From: Viridothelium virens
Lineage: Eukaryota; Ascomycota; Dothideomycetes; Trypetheliales; Trypetheliaceae
Assembly: GCA_010094025.1 (NCBI GenBank)
Contig: ML991775.1
Coordinates: forward strand, 1-64,000
Direction: 5' to 3'
Length of the DNA: 64,000 nt
Part shown: piece after piece, positions 46,282 through 57,062 of the stretch
Layout of the letters: the number at the start of each line of letters is the position of its first letter
Numbering within the stretch: the stretch's first letter is position 1
The notes under the pieces: model-generated
Database searches by the model: none
The model's input: only the letters and a program-made list of their open reading frames with translations
Told to the model about the DNA's origin: nothing
Position numbers and translations under genes: made by a program

Positions 46282-47964
46282 TCAATCATCTATCCTGTCG
46301 AGTTTCCCCTTCAATTCCCCATTATCCAGCAAACTCCCGAACATAGCCGTCTCAAAAAGCCTATTTATCTGCCAAGCGTGATGCACGGCATGAAGCAGCA
46401 GCCAAGTCATCTCGTCGATTAAGCCCTTGCTATAAAAAGTCGCCATGGCCAGCCTCGACATCTCACCAAGCTCGTCCTCTCGCGCCTTCGACAGCACGCC
46501 CAGCTCGACGTACTTCAATGGCCCCGTGGACAAACACCACCAAAGATGAGTCAATGAATCTTTCTTCGCATTATCTCTAAAAGAAGAGATGCACCTCTCA
46601 ACTTGATCACACGGATCCATGCCATTGCATGTATCTTTCAGAGGTCTGCTGAATCCCGTGGTGTGGAAGCTTTCATCAAAGACCTCGTCAAAGTCGCCTT
46701 CTCTCTGCGGCTGCTCCTCCGTCCGCCCAAACCTCTTCGCTTTCTCCCGACCAAGGACCGCTCTTCTCAAAAACATATGTCGATCATTCTGAATATGCCA
46801 GCAAAACAAAATCGCGCACATCCTCCCTATGGGCTCGCTCCAGCGTTCCGTCAACATCCTGGCGCCAGTGTGCGCGTACGCATCATAGACCCGTCGAAGC
46901 GCTTCCTCGCTCACGATTCCACTTCCGGTGATATCCGTGGTATTGAGGAACGAATTCAGGACTTCGGAATTGAGAATATCAGACCCGACGTCGACTACAT
47001 CCGTGCCGGGTGAGCTAAATACCAAATCGCTCATCGTAGCCGCGGGATCGAAGCCACGAGCAATCGCCTCGGCGCCCATACTCATCAGACTGCTTTCGAG
47101 CAAGAACACCACCTGCGCAGTCCGCCGATCCATAGGCGCCGTCTTATACGCCACGGCGCCCTTAAACTCCTCCTCCAGCGCGATCTTCCCGCGAATATAC
47201 CGCAGCCCGATCTCCACCGCGATCCGCCGCTCCCGCCCCGCCGGCGTCCGCCTCGCTTGCTCATCCGCCACCGACTGTCGCAGTAGCTCCCCGAGCTCCG
47301 GGAAGACCTTGTGGTAGCCATGCTCGTAGTAGAAGGCCATGTCGGTGCAGTAGTTCGAGAACAGCGTCGCCGGGTCGTATGCCCCAATGAACATGTTCGC
47401 CATCCCGGACCCGAAGAGCGCGTCGTTCGTGAGCAAAGGCCGGGGCCAGTCTTCTGCCCCTAGCAGCGTGAGCACAGTGGGTGAGGCCCGCGTCAGTCCG
47501 GGGCCTTTCGCCGGCAGGATACGTCCAAGGGCGAACTGGTCCTGGCGCCACTTTTGGAGGGAGGGCGAGAGGCGGATTGAGGTGAGACCGGAGCCGGCTG
47601 GCCCCTGACCGTTCGCTGTGGATGCCCTTGTGGATGAGAGATGGCTGAAGGCTTCATTGACGTATTGAAGGGCTTGTGTCCCCAGCTTGGCCATTGTCCC
47701 CAGATTTCCATCGCCGATGATCGAGCTGGCTTCTACATATCCTCGATGAATGGGGAAGCTTGACGTGCCAGCACCCTCGTCGGAGCCTTTGCCCCAGAAA
47801 TATGGAATATTCTGTAGGGTCGATTTGGGGCTAATGGCTGGTGCAATCTGATGGTCAAGGAGGTTTGGGCTGTCACTCCTTACGGAAGACTGTTCTTGTT
47901 TGGGGCTGTCAACATAGCAGTCCATCGCTCCTTCCTGTTCCGTCTCAACAAGCGGAAACTGCAC
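46282..47964 (-). CDS. Fungal protein of unknown function, 560 aa
   Basis: Single exon. The first 130 residues are Ser-rich and probably disordered, and the rest looks helical. Distinctive stretches are RPLLTNDALFGSGMANMFIG, YDPATLFSNYCTDMAFYYEH, IAVEIGLRYIRGKIALEEEF, MLTERWSEPIGRMCAILFCW then HIQNDRHMF, and GLIDEMTWLLLHAVHHAWQI. No signal peptide, membrane helix or known catalytic motif (no DDxxD, no P-loop) was seen. The frame is long and GC-rich at third positions in its middle, so it is real. It lies 347 bp downstream of, and on the same strand as, the homoserine kinase-AIR synthetase fusion. I do not recognise the family. Confidence 0.7.
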   Translation of the reverse strand: MQFPLVETEQEGAMDCYVDSPKQEQSSVRSDSPNLLDHQIAPAISPKSTLQNIPYFWGKGSDEGAGTSSFPIHRGYVEASSIIGDGNLGTMAKLGTQALQYVNEAFSHLSSTRASTANGQGPAGSGLTSIRLSPSLQKWRQDQFALGRILPAKGPGLTRASPTVLTLLGAEDWPRPLLTNDALFGSGMANMFIGAYDPATLFSNYCTDMAFYYEHGYHKVFPELGELLRQSVADEQARRTPAGRERRIAVEIGLRYIRGKIALEEEFKGAVAYKTAPMDRRTAQVVFLLESSLMSMGAEAIARGFDPAATMSDLVFSSPGTDVVDVGSDILNSEVLNSFLNTTDITGSGIVSEEALRRVYDAYAHTGARMLTERWSEPIGRMCAILFCWHIQNDRHMFLRRAVLGREKAKRFGRTEEQPQREGDFDEVFDESFHTTGFSRPLKDTCNGMDPCDQVERCISSFRDNAKKDSLTHLWWCLSTGPLKYVELGVLSKAREDELGEMSRLAMATFYSKGLIDEMTWLLLHAVHHAWQINRLFETAMFGSLLDNGELKGKLDRIDD

Positions 47965-48311
47965 CGAAGGGAACTTGAGGATAGGGGACTCGAGGAGTCA
48001 AACAGTGGCTTGACAGTCGTCTGGAGATTGCAGATGATACTTAGTGAATGCCCAAGTATCTATCTACAATGAAGCATGTGTCCTCTACTGATAAGCAGTG
48101 ATCACAGAGGTCAGCTGTGACACTGTGCCGCAATATTGCAATAGCAATCAAGAGCTCTGATAGAGCAGGACCAGCTAAAAATCATTCGATCGTGGCAACC
48201 AGGACAATCCAGGTGCAATATTTCCTGGAGCATACCAGCCAAAATCTGAGCGTCTCCATACCGAATTCTATCAGTAACGGCTGCAGGCAACTCAGAAGTC
48301 GATGATGAGCT
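47965..48311. promoter_or_regulatory. Tandem spacer: promoter of the 560-aa gene
   Basis: 347 bp between the stop of the fusion gene and the start of the next minus-strand gene. It should hold the terminator of one and the promoter of the other; no motif is clear. Confidence 0.45.
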
Positions 48312-50689
48312 TCATTCCCAAGTCTCCATCTTGTCCACCGAGCATCCAATAGTTCCTTTGCGCCTGTTTCCCAGCTGTCCAACTTCCCAGACTGCCTCTC
48401 CAGCTTCTCCTAATCTCTTCGTTACCTCGGATACCCTGGCAGCGTCTACGACAAGGACCATGCCCAGTCCTGCATTGAAGGCTGACACAAACTCGTCATT
48501 CCCCACGTTGCCCGTCCTTTTCAACCACCTCAATACTGCCGGCACCTTCCATCTCTGGGCGTCGAGCGTAGCGGCGAGATGAGAAGGCAGCATGCGCGGG
48601 ATATTCTCCACCAGACCACCCCCCGTAATGTGCGCAAGACCCTTGATTCCGGTGAAGTCCGACGCCTGCAGAAGCGGTAGCAAAGCCTTGACATAGATCT
48701 TCGTCGGCGTCAACAAGGCCTCCCCAACGGTCGTTTCCTCCCCTTCCACCCACGGCGCCCGATCGCCATATCCCAATCCCGCCCGGTCCTCCACAATCTT
48801 CCGAATCAAGCTAAACCCATTACTGTGCGCCCCACTACTCGCCAACCCAACCAGCACATCCCTCTCTCTCATCGCCCCCGTATCCGGGAGCACCTTCCTC
48901 CCCTGCGGCACCGCTCCCGTCGCCTGCCCCGCGGCATCAAACTCCCCCTCGCCATACATCCCCGGCATCTCCGCCGTCTCTCCCCCCACCAACGCACACC
49001 CCGCCAAGCGACAGCCCTCGGCGACGCCCTCGACAAACTCCGCCGCGACCTCCAGCTGCAGGCGGCCGGTGGCGTAGTAGTCGAGGAAGCTGAGGGGCTC
49101 GGCGCCCTGGACGAGCAGGTCGTTGACGTTCATGGCGACGAGGTCGACGCCCACGCTGCGGTAGCGGCCCGTCGCGAACGCCACCTTCAGCTTCGTCCCC
49201 ACCCCGTCGATGCAGTGGATCAGCGTCGGTGCTAACGTGTACCCTGCCGCGCGGAGGTCGAAGGTCCCCCCGAAGCCGCCGATGGAGGCGGAGGTGCCCG
49301 GGCGCGCGGTGCTGGCCGCGGTGGACCGGATGCGCTGGATGAGCTGGTTGCCGGTGTGGATGGAGACGCCGGCGGAGGCGTAGGTCATGGCGGGGGAGGA
49401 GCAGGGGCCGGGAGGTAGAGAGGTTGAATCGGGTGGCTGGTGGTTCACGGTGGCGCCGTCGTTAGCGGGGGTGAGGAGTTTCCAGTCGCATTTGATGGTT
49501 TTGCCTTTTTGTTTTTGGTATTCGGATATAAGTTTGGAGGAGATGGCGTCGGCGATGGAGGAAAAATTTGTGGTGGCGAGAGCGAGGATGGTGGGACCGG
49601 CGCCAGAGAGACAGATGCCGAGGAGGCCGGGATGGCTCTTGGGGGAGAGGGATTGGAGAACTTCGGAGAGACCCGGGATAAGATGCTGGCGATAGGGTTG
49701 GTGCATTTTGTCTTGCATGCCTTGATATATCATGTCTGGGTCTGGTGGGCTTTCCCCCAAGGAAGTAGTTAGGAGAGCAGTGCGTTGAAGATTGAATACC
49801 ATATCTGCCCGAGTATACTTTTCGGGGAGACATTTTCGAGCGTCAGCGGTGGGAACTTCAAAATTCGGGATGATCGCAATGCATTTCACTTCCTTTGCCC
49901 ATCGAAACTTCTTGTAGTGGCCAATATTGAATGGTGGTTTGGGAGGAATGATGCCAGTATCGACCCCACCAGCCGGTTGTGGTAGAACTTCAGAAAGTGG
50001 TATTTCCTTTCTCTCCGTGTCCTTTGGTTCGAGCTCGTTCAAGTACGTCCCTACGAAACCGCCGTATAGTGCAGCCGCTACATTATCAGGATGTCGTTCT
50101 GCAAGAGGTGATCAGTACTTTAAGCAGAAAGTCAACGAAGGAGTCAAATACAATGCCATACCAACCATCAGAGAATAATCCAACATTCTGTTCTTTGACA
50201 GACCAAGCTTTCCCACCTCATTTGCCAGCATCACTCCGCCAACGACGGCTGCACCGGACGACCCCAATCCTCTTCCGAGGGGTATGTTGTTGATGATATG
50301 GACATTTGTCCCGTTTGGAAATGCTCTCTGGCCATGGCATCGTAGTACGTAGAGCGCAGTGCGAGTAAGGAGGTTCTCATCTGCAACTAGTACCACATCT
50401 TCTTTACCTGGACCTTCGTATGTGACATTGCAATGAAGGGGTGCAGTTGATGGAGTACTTGAAGAATCAAATGTCACTTGAATCTCGAGATAGATAGATA
50501 GCGCGAGACCAATGACATCAAAGCCGGGTCCTGAAGTTTGACGTCAGTCATCCACTGATAGAAGAAGTTGCAAGTGGGAAAGTTTCACCGATATTGGCAG
50601 AGGAGCACGGAACTTCTGTACATTTGGTGAGCTCAACGAGTCTTCTACTGCCAGCTGCATTGCACAGGCTACGCACTTATCGTGATCAT
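48312..50689 (-). CDS. Homoserine kinase fused to AIR synthetase (Thr1-AIRS)
   Basis: Four exons, 50689-50677, 50615-50589, 50530-50162 and 50098-48312, give 731 aa; phases 1, 1, 1 close exactly. Residues 1-354 are a GHMP homoserine kinase: MITIKVPCSSANIGPGFDVI, PLGRGLGSSGA (101-106 is the ATP loop), CLSGAGPTILAL, and the usual C-terminus LLTPANDGATV. A Pro/Ser linker (355-373) has no stop and runs into residues 374-731, AIR synthetase (PurM fold): MTYASAGVSIHTGNQLIQRI, IGGFGGTFDL, DGVGTKLKVA, VAMNVNDLLVQGAEPLSFLD, GGETAEMPGMYGEGE. All motifs look intact, so both activities are expected: homoserine + ATP to O-phosphohomoserine, and FGAM + ATP to AIR. AIRS is normally the C-terminal half of fungal Ade5,7. 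It is divergent from the GAR synthetase gene. Fusion of these two enzymes is not one I know. Confidence 0.9.
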
Positions 50690-51216: not shown

Positions 51217-52609
51217 ATGTCTTGCCAATCCCTTATAATTCTGCTTCTGGGTTCTGGCGGCAGAGAACATGCTCTCGCATGGAAACTCTCCCAATCGCCC
51301 CTCGTCCACCACGTCTACTGCGTTCCTGGAAACGGCGGCACCGCATCAACGCCTAAGTGCACCAATCATTCCGATCTCCCATCTCCAGAAAAGGTATCTA
51401 GCTTTCCCGCTCTCGTGTCATTCGCTCAGCGGCATGGCGTCAACTTTCTAGTCCCCGGACCCGAGGCCCCCCTTGTTGCTGGAGTTGTGGATTACTTTGA
51501 GCAGCATGCGCCAGGCGTCCGCTGCTTCGGGCCGAAATCTGACGCAGCGAGAATGGAAGGCAGCAAGACATTCGCAAAGGATTTCATGAGGAAGCATGCA
51601 ATTCCCACCGCCAAATATCAGAATTTCTCTTCGCATGCGTCCGCAAAACAGTATCTGGAGACGGTGGATCATCCAGTGGTCATCAAAGCTTCGGGTCTTG
51701 CGGGTGGAAAAGGCGTCATCATTCCGTCTTCTAAAGATGAAGCGCAAGAGGCTTTGACCGATATCATGCTGAAGAGCGAGTTCGGTGCTGCTGGCGAAGA
51801 AGTCGTGATCGAGGAATTCCTGGAAGGGAACGAGATCTCGATATTATCGTTCTCCGATGGTATCACGATTAAAAGCTTGCCACCAGCGCAGGATCATAAG
51901 AGAATTGGTGATGGCGATACAGGTGGGAACACGGGAGGAATGGGTGCATATGCGCCGTGTCCAAGCAGTGTAGTTAGTCAAGCGCAGATGGAGGAGATTG
52001 AACGGACAGTGCTGCGACCGACAATAAAAGGAATGGAAGATGAAGGTAAGCGTAAAGCTGGGTTCGAGAGAGCTAAAACTCGAATGCGCCCGTGGAGCAC
52101 CTTCAGCTAAAGACTCATTAGGATATCCATTCAGAGGCGTACTATTCACCGGCCTCATGATGGCCACCTCTGGACCCTGCGTCCTCGAGTACAATGTTCG
52201 CTTTGGTGATCCCGAAGTGCAAACCCTCCTCCCACTCCTCGCTCCAGAAACGGACCTTGCGCAAGTTCTTTATGCCTGTACAGACCATACTCTAAGCTCC
52301 GTTCAAGTATCCATAACCAACGACGTCGCCGCCACTGTCGTCGTGGCTGCTGGTGGCTACCCGAGCTCCTATCCTAAGGGCACACCAATGAAGTTGAAGG
52401 ATATTCCGGAGGACGTACAGGTATTCCACGCCGGAACGGCCGTGGATGTCGAAGGAAAGCTGAAGACGTCTGGAGGAAGAGTCATTGCGGCGACTGCGAC
52501 TGGCAAGACCCTCAAGGAGGCAGTGGAAAAAGCGTATGGTGGTGTGAAGGCCATCGAGTTTGAGGGTATGTATTACAGGAGAGATATTGCGGCGAGAGCA
52601 TTAAATTAG
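51217..52609 (+). CDS. Free-standing GAR synthetase (phosphoribosylamine-glycine ligase)
   Basis: ATP-grasp enzyme of purine synthesis: phosphoribosylamine + glycine + ATP to GAR. Two exons, 51217-52045 and 52122-52609 (GTAAGC...CATTAG, phase 1), give 438 aa. Motifs in order: IILLLGSGGREHALAWKLSQ, NFLVPGPEAPLVAGVVDYFE, VIKASGLAGGKGVIIP, FLEGNEISILSFSDG, GDGDTGGNTGGMGAYAP, LEYNVRFGDPEVQTLLPLL. It ends at YYRRDIAARALN and stops, exactly where fungal Ade5,7 proteins continue into the AIR synthetase half. The missing half is found fused to homoserine kinase on the other strand. The last third is slightly divergent from textbook sequences but keeps the key residues. Confidence 0.92.
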
Positions 52610-55326: not shown

Positions 55327-55993
55327 AGCGAATTCTATCATTATTGGTGCAATGTTTCAATAAGACTTGGAAAGGCATGTTCGCTTGGCATGCAGGTAAG
55401 GCATGGACATCCCCCGCCCTCTGATTCGCCGATCGTCCGTCGCAACAGGCGAACTCCTTGTCTAATTGGCCATCTGGTTTCATCTCCTCGGCGCTTCGCT
55501 CAGACTTCGTTGCCAGTGCTGCAATGGCCGACCAGCTACAAAAAGCACAGTCAGGTGCAACCCTGTGCCTCAGTAGAAATGCGGAGCCAATCTTTGCCTA
55601 TCAGGACCCCCACGTTGGAACCCTCCTCGTCTGCCCGTTCTCTCGCCTTGGCCTCAATTGCACACACGCCACAGTTACCTACTCGTTAGGGTTTGGCGGC
55701 AATCTCTCCCGAGCGGACCTGCGTCCGCATCGAGGCAAGTCATCTGTCGTCGTTGCTCGTCCCATCGCTTTATCGTCACGCCAGTACATGATTCTATGCA
55801 TAAGGAAGGGAGCAACTGGGAATAAGCTTTCGGAGCACGGTGCGACAAGTGACTCTGGTGATAATAACGATGATTGGGTCCTGAATACAAATATCATCGT
55901 ATTGTTCCTTTGCACTCTTCTGTGGTCCTAAAGCTTCCTGAAGCAACTTTGCAGCCGAGTTTTTGATTCGCAGCCATTTTAGAGCCCCTCAAC
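55327..55993. other. Spacer before the S1/P1 nuclease
   Basis: 667 bp. It contains an open frame (55458-55931) with a hydrophobic end but no domain and no conservation that I recognise; most likely UTR and promoter. Confidence 0.45.
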
Positions 55994-57062
55994 ATGGCAC
56001 TTCTCGTGAAACGTCTTCCTCTTTTTGCTGCGCTGCCGGGCGCTCTTGCCTGGGGGGAGTTGGGTCACTACACCGTTGGCTATATTGCCCAGAACTTTGT
56101 CCAATCCTCTACCGCGTCGTGGGCTAAAGACATTCTTGGCTCTGGGTCTTCCAACACCTCTTATCTTGCTGCGGTTGCTACATGGGCCGATACATACCGT
56201 TATACCTCTGCCGGCGCTTTCTCAGCTCCATTCCATTTCATTGATGCAGAGGACAATCCCCCTTCTAGCTGCAATGTCGATTATGATCGCGACTGTGGTG
56301 ATGATGGATGTTCTATCTCTGCCATTCAAAATTACACCACCCGTGTTCAGGACGGCCGGCATACTCAGGCGGATCGTCAAATGTCGCTAAAATGGATCAT
56401 CCACATCATCGGCGACATCCATCAACCGCTCCACGACGAGGCTCTCGAGGTTGGCGGCAATGACATTGATGTCAATTTCGGCAGCGATGACAGCACCAAT
56501 CTCCACCACATCTGGGATACCGAGATGCCAGAGAAGCTTGTCGGTGGATATTCCCTCAGTGATGCGGAAAGCTGGGCTACCACCCTCACCAGCGACATCA
56601 AGAGCGGTACCTACAAGAGTCAGGCTGCTAGCTGGTTAGACGGTATCGATCTTAGCGATCCGGTTACCACCACCATGAACTGGGCAACTGAGGCCAACGC
56701 CGACGTCTGTACCATCGTCATGCCCAAAGGCGAATCGTACTATGTGAACAAGGATCTGTCTACCTCGTACTACACAGGTGCTATCAGCACTGTCGAGCTT
56801 CAGATTGCTAGGGGTATGTTGTCAATCCGCTTTTCCATCCTTGCTCATACTTATGTTAATCTATTTCATGACAGCCGGATACCGTCTTGCCAAATGGCTC
56901 GACCTCATTGCTGCCAACGACTCGAAACGCAAGCGTGATCTCGCCGAGGGCGTTACGCCAGCACCACTACCAGAGGTCGCTGCTCCGCCCAAACCAAGCC
57001 GTCTTAGTCGCGCGAAGATGGCAAGGGCGGCCAGAGGGTATAACTGCAATCACGCTCACTGA
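55994..57062 (+). CDS. Secreted S1/P1-family zinc nuclease
   Basis: Extracellular single-strand nuclease and 3'-nucleotidase with a trinuclear zinc site. Two exons, 55994-56813 and 56875-57062 (GTATGT...GACAG, phase 1), give 335 aa. Signal peptide residues 1-19 end at ALA, leaving Trp20 as the new N-terminus, the known zinc ligand of this family. Other ligands seen: GELGHYT (His), ATWADTYR (Asp), FHFIDAED (His, Asp), WIIHIIGDIHQPLHDE (His, Asp, His) and LHHIWDTEM (His, Asp). Paired cysteines fit the family disulphides. The C-terminal tail after AGYRLAKWLDLIAA is longer and basic (SKRKRDLAEG ... RLSRAKMARAARG), unlike the classic short S1 end. Confidence 0.94.

Follow-up and report, generated by a model that had tools for sequence, protein, structure and literature searches.

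Homoserine kinase and AIR synthetase in one predicted chain in Viridothelium virens and other Dothideomycetes, a probable partner swap of a purine enzyme

Results

A gene that joins homoserine kinase to AIR synthetase

We analysed a window of 64,000 nucleotides at the start of contig 5 of Viridothelium virens (Dothideomycetes, order Trypetheliales), a lichen-forming fungus, and found a gene in which a complete homoserine kinase (HSK) of threonine synthesis continues into a complete AIR synthetase (AIRS) of purine synthesis. Judged from sequence, this is very probably a genuine HSK-AIRS fusion, formed when the bifunctional purine enzyme Ade5,7 was broken in its linker and its AIRS half was joined to HSK. 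A known enzyme appears here to have changed its partner; the product is already present in the databases, and we found no description of it in the open-access literature. The features of the locus are collected in Table 1.

Table 1 Features of the fusion locus in the window.
Feature	Position	Strand	Details
HSK-AIRS fusion gene	48312..50689	minus	4 exons, 731 aa; GT..AG spliced translation, thrB and purM matches
Homoserine kinase (HSK) part	49440..50689	minus	residues 1-356, three introns; TIGR00191, motif scan
Inter-domain linker	49389..49439	minus	about 17 residues; least conserved block, predicted disordered
AIR synthetase (AIRS) part	48312..49388	minus	from residue 374; TIGR00878, motif scan
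Intergenic stretch between divergent start codons	50690..51216		527 bp
Stand-alone GAR synthetase (GARS)	51217..52609	plus	exons 51217-52045, 52122-52609; 438 aa, ends ..DIAARALN

The exons of the fusion gene lie at 50689-50677, 50615-50589, 50530-50162 and 50098-48312, the last one including the stop, and the three introns between them measure 61, 58 and 63 nt and have GT..AG borders. After splicing, the coding sequence of 2196 nt is translated into the full protein. The last exon covers the remainder of HSK, the linker and the whole of AIRS without a stop, in a frame that is open for 599 aa. The preliminary description had given the same coordinates and the same length of 731 residues, and both agree with the four-exon spliced model; its statement that no stop separates the two enzymes was likewise borne out, and one continuous exon frame, uninterrupted by an intron, spans the linker.

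Both halves were matched over nearly their full length by equivalog models. NCBIfam thrB (TIGR00191) covered residues 3-356 with 318 bits against a cut-off of 168 (profile positions 2-303 of 304), and purM (TIGR00878) covered residues 374-712 with 380 bits against a cut-off of 236 (profile positions 1-329 of 332). The Pfam families GHMP_kinases_N, AIRS and AIRS_C were also above their cut-offs, and GHMP_kinases_C was slightly under it (20.9 against 21.0). In a motif scan with selected HSK (GHMP) and AIRS patterns, the HSK half carried ANIGPGFDV, GRGLGSSGAA, RHPDNV and SGAGPT, four motifs that are conserved in 112, 116, 115 and 120 of the 120 fusions listed. The AIRS half carried DGVGTK, DLVAMNVND, GGETAEMPG, HSNGFSL and HITGGG; the corresponding motifs DGxGTK, DLVAMxVND, GGETAEMPG, HSNG and HITGGG are conserved in 120, 120, 111, 120 and 119 of the 120. 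By equivalog model and motifs, the window protein would be classed both as an HSK of the ThrB/Thr1 type and as an AIR synthetase of the PurM type. The earlier proposal of a natural fusion with signature motifs in both halves is thus upheld by the gene model, the near full-length thrB and purM matches and the motif scan.

The fraction of GC at third codon positions is 0.50 in the HSK half and 0.78 in the AIRS half; it peaks at 0.94-0.96 at codons 401-500 of the fusion, with a flip of GC skew close by. The fusion gene adjoins a 571-aa open frame on the minus strand (46282-47997) without any Pfam match, and an S1/P1 nuclease gene lies on the plus strand at 55967-56938. The window protein is 100% identical over 98% to P0001, a protein filed as Trypethelium eluteriae (MAG). 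Since the two are almost identical, either that record or the one of Viridothelium virens may be misnamed.

Spread of the fusion among fungi

Two protein searches, one with the window protein and one with its Trizodia relative as the query, returned 3838 and 4131 proteins below the E-value threshold, and the best 120 of each set together comprised 168 distinct proteins. Each of the 168 listed homologues is predicted as a single chain in which SGAGPT of HSK is followed by DGxGTK of AIRS. Every named fusion homologue except Trizodia is from a dothideomycete, and many orders are represented; Aureobasidium is among the carriers. The HSK-AIRS fusion is, by these predicted proteins, widespread and conserved in Dothideomycetes, and the window protein resembles the fusions of the listed Dothideomycetes, with a stand-alone GARS in the same genome. 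Databases file the fusion protein under "homoserine kinase", "phosphoribosylformylglycinamidine cyclo-ligase" or "ADE1", and these differing names for one protein are explained by its two halves. In the prokaryote and viral contigs, HSK stood next to PurM in none of 160 loci (the 80 best loci per scan, retrieved throughout via AIRS patterns and with limited flanks).

The preliminary description had known of no described enzyme with this build. The sequence databases do contain it, in all 168 listed homologues, but we found no paper describing the HSK-AIRS fusion in the open-access literature.

The one named exception, Trizodia sp. TS-e1964, is unplaced within leotiomyceta at NCBI. In a tree with Leotiomycetes alone as the outgroup, its AIRS fell outside the sampled Dothideomycetes with a support of 89. 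When bacterial PurM was used as the root, it grouped with the Leotiomycetes AIRS (98/88), and a single fusion clade including Trizodia was not rejected in the tree rooted in this way (p-AU 0.36). The Trizodia fusion may have been inherited vertically or acquired by transfer, or it may come from a mixed bin. In a 2025 phylogenomic study, Trizodia stands on a long early branch and more sampling is called for (PMC12238968).

Copy number in the genome

We searched the genome assembly, which comprises 30.7 Mb in 175 contigs and may be incomplete, with a six-frame search that runs exon by exon. A single match each was obtained with the thrB model, with PF00586 and with the last exon as DNA. It had been suggested at the outset to look for a separate Thr1 and a canonical Ade5,7, and neither a separate HSK nor a second AIRS was found in these profile and DNA searches of the genome. 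Four other GHMP matches were rejected as HSK, as the thrB model did not report them. Two extra AIRS_C matches on contig C84 were also rejected as a second AIRS; both belong to a single 1421-aa frame that presumably encodes FGAM synthetase. The fusion therefore appears to be the only visible source of HSK and AIRS in this genome, and with one HSK and one AIRS gene present, it probably serves both the threonine and the purine pathway.

The genome has a second GARS-like gene, which is diverged. It lies on contig C55 at about 148600-150100, its tblastn identity with the GARS of the window is about 44%, and its N-terminal reading frame is broken in the assembly. No AIRS match was found beside it, and in the tree it stands on a long branch outside the GARS of Dothideomycetes.

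A stand-alone GAR synthetase and probable traces of Ade5,7

The gene divergent to the fusion encodes GARS alone. TIGR00877 purD spans nearly the whole of its model in this protein (scored on a 443-aa version), and the 438-aa model is identical to P0121 of Viridothelium virens. The stretch between the two start codons is presumably a shared promoter region of the fusion and GARS; neither TGASTCA, the amino-acid-control site, nor TGACTC, the Bas1-type site, occurs in its 527 bp. Two GARS proteins (P0143 and P0165), 64% identical to that of the window, are recorded as coming from cork oak, Quercus suber, and presumably represent fungal contamination of that genome.

By its predicted composition, the window protein is not an Ade5,7, that is, GARS and AIRS in one chain. 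The preliminary description had stated that the AIRS of known fungi forms the C-terminal half of Ade5,7, and this fails for the listed Dothideomycetes; in the window, a stand-alone GARS, which that description had overlooked, starts 527 bp away from the fusion. The partner that normally precedes AIRS thus adjoins the fusion as a gene of its own, and this points to Ade5,7 as the source of the AIRS half.

The ends of the two proteins carry further traces of such a break. Among the 120 GARS homologues listed, 111 had no AIRS start and nine had the canonical linker. These nine consisted of six truncated models and three full-length leotiomycete proteins (P0193, P0198 and P0232 from Pseudogymnoascus, Chlorociboria and Glarea) with GARS and AIRS in one chain; the linker of Glarea reads RALKRTASKEALTYASAGV. 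The stand-alone GARS proteins end at most two residues from the RAL-type motif, at which the canonical linker begins, in 100 of the 111 listed; in the other 11, five extend 3-10 residues further and six lack the motif. In Lophium, the C-terminus reads RALKKTAS. On the side of the fusions, E[AS][LM] before TYA is retained in 77 of the first 120 and in 84/168 overall among the matches listed. It is absent from 43 of the first 120 and from 84/168 overall, and the linker of the window protein (..SPAM-TYA) belongs to this latter group. PKAM was found in 36 of the 168 listed fusions, and Trizodia has RESL. Since the GARS ends and E[AS][LM] correspond to the beginning and the end of the canonical linker, we infer that Ade5,7 was torn at this point and that AIRS changed its partner; the break most likely occurred inside the old inter-domain linker.

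Linker and predicted structure

When the mean identity was calculated in blocks of 20 residues, the linker block 361-380 was the lowest (0.40), and block 321-340 near the end of HSK was variable too (0.46). The structure was predicted for the relative P0002 as a stand-in for the spliced window protein. The model (mean pLDDT 84.8, pTM 0.53) has two mostly well-predicted domains, and pLDDT was below 50 in linker residues 358-370 and likewise in stretches 15-17, 155-159 and 162-182 of HSK. It is consistent with two bodies joined by a flexible tether.

Two readings would deny that the locus makes a single bifunctional protein. That the join is an artefact of assembly or of the gene model can practically be dismissed, because the same chain order in 168/168 distinct listed homologues, drawn from many separate records of genome and metagenome assemblies, excludes chance or misassembly, and in the window a single continuous open frame crosses the junction. 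It is also conceivable that the two halves are made separately from one locus, AIRS either starting at an internal ATG or being released by cleavage of the linker. There is indeed an ATG at 49388, in frame and opening AIRS, the third-position GC jumps at the junction (0.50 to 0.78), and the linker is predicted to be disordered. However, the residue at this position is variable, being methionine in 58, leucine in 60 and isoleucine in 2 of the 120 listed fusions, and HSK and AIRS form a single predicted chain in every one of the 168 listed proteins. If the join had no use, we would expect some of the homologues to have lost it, and for this reason we regard separate proteins as very unlikely.

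How the swap may have arisen

A single inversion could have produced the present gene order. In the ancestral state, HSK and Ade5,7 would have stood head to head with a divergent promoter between them. If one break fell at the 3' end of HSK and the other in the GARS-AIRS linker, the inversion would leave GARS alone, AIRS behind HSK and both promoters between them, which is exactly the order observed now. We give this route about an even chance. It is supported by the linkage of the fusion and GARS. Their longest contigs were of equal size in 8 of the 32 tabulated named species, whereas genes placed at random in a genome assumed to be 35 Mb in size would give 1.1; as the longest contig of a cluster may stem from another genome of that cluster, equal size is strong but indirect evidence of linkage. 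The table leaves out Friedmanniomyces endolithicus, in which the contig sizes of the listed clusters differ, and the count becomes 8/33 with it. The equal-size species include members of Trypetheliales, Botryosphaeriales, Dothideales and Myriangiales. In Bathelium, GARS and the fusion have consecutive locus tags (M1821_006894 and 006895); in NU459, the two gene numbers, g5807 and g5819, are 12 apart; and a GARS/fusion pair in which both longest contigs measure 7,213 bases is sister to Rhizodiscina in both trees.

The other route that we weighed leads to the same product by duplication or translocation: a copy of AIRS, or of Ade5,7 as a whole, would have been placed at the 3' end of HSK, and with the later loss of the original AIRS half, GARS would have been left. 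The longest contigs of the fusion and GARS differ in size in 24 of the 32 tabulated species, as this route would allow, and the second, diverged GARS-like gene on C55 indicates that a further GARS copy entered or arose at some time. That copy, however, has no adjoining AIRS match and does not group with the GARS of Dothideomycetes (its branch is long), and a distant copy predicts otherwise than what is seen in several separate lineages, where GARS and the fusion are adjacent or apparently on the same contig. We therefore consider the copy route rather unlikely. Returning to the inversion, we suggest only tentatively the fuller history, in which one event split one bifunctional enzyme and built another, early in the dothideomycetes or before the split from Trizodia, and the result has been kept since across the class.

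Discussion

In the fusion protein, a flexible tether would connect two catalytic domains that fold independently and carry out their usual reactions: the HSK half would convert homoserine to O-phosphohomoserine, and the AIRS half FGAM to AIR. The two reactions are not known to have an intermediate in common, and from what is known of the families no channelling between the halves would be expected. HSK and AIRS each form dimers. What the tether would couple is the amount of one threonine enzyme and that of one purine enzyme. The link from threonine through glycine to GAR named in the preliminary description is possible as a speculation; a threonine-aldolase-type gene (PF01212) is present in the genome and has no observed tie to the fusion.

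Compared with fungal Ade5,7, the fusion likewise has AIRS at its C-terminus, and the residues just before TYASAGV are alike in many fusions; its N-terminal partner, however, is HSK instead of GARS, which is a separate gene. Like fungal Thr1 and bacterial ThrB, it contains a complete HSK with the four signature motifs, but it adds a C-terminal AIRS, and no stand-alone HSK was found in this genome. Animal trifunctional GART has the order GARS-AIRS-GART, and the solved structure 2v9y is human AIRS. The partners of AIRS in the animal protein are purine enzymes, whereas the partner in the fusion comes from threonine synthesis; AIRS in animal GART lies inside a multifunctional purine protein (PMC6816169). 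Spermidine synthase-saccharopine reductase is a natural basidiomycete fusion (PMC10051792), which also joins enzymes of two pathways, but different enzymes.

The covalent pair of GARS and AIRS is usually regarded as fixed in fungal and animal purine synthesis. A large fungal group appears to have dispensed with this pair and to have attached AIRS to an enzyme from a different pathway, so that the function of the GARS-AIRS link and the effect of a cross-pathway fusion become directly testable. If the inversion took place as proposed, one step of purine synthesis would since have been governed by the expression control of an enzyme of threonine synthesis. In these fungi, the loss of one gene is predicted to cause a need for both threonine and adenine. 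The fusion may also serve as a rare genomic marker of Dothideomycetes and help to settle where Trizodia belongs.
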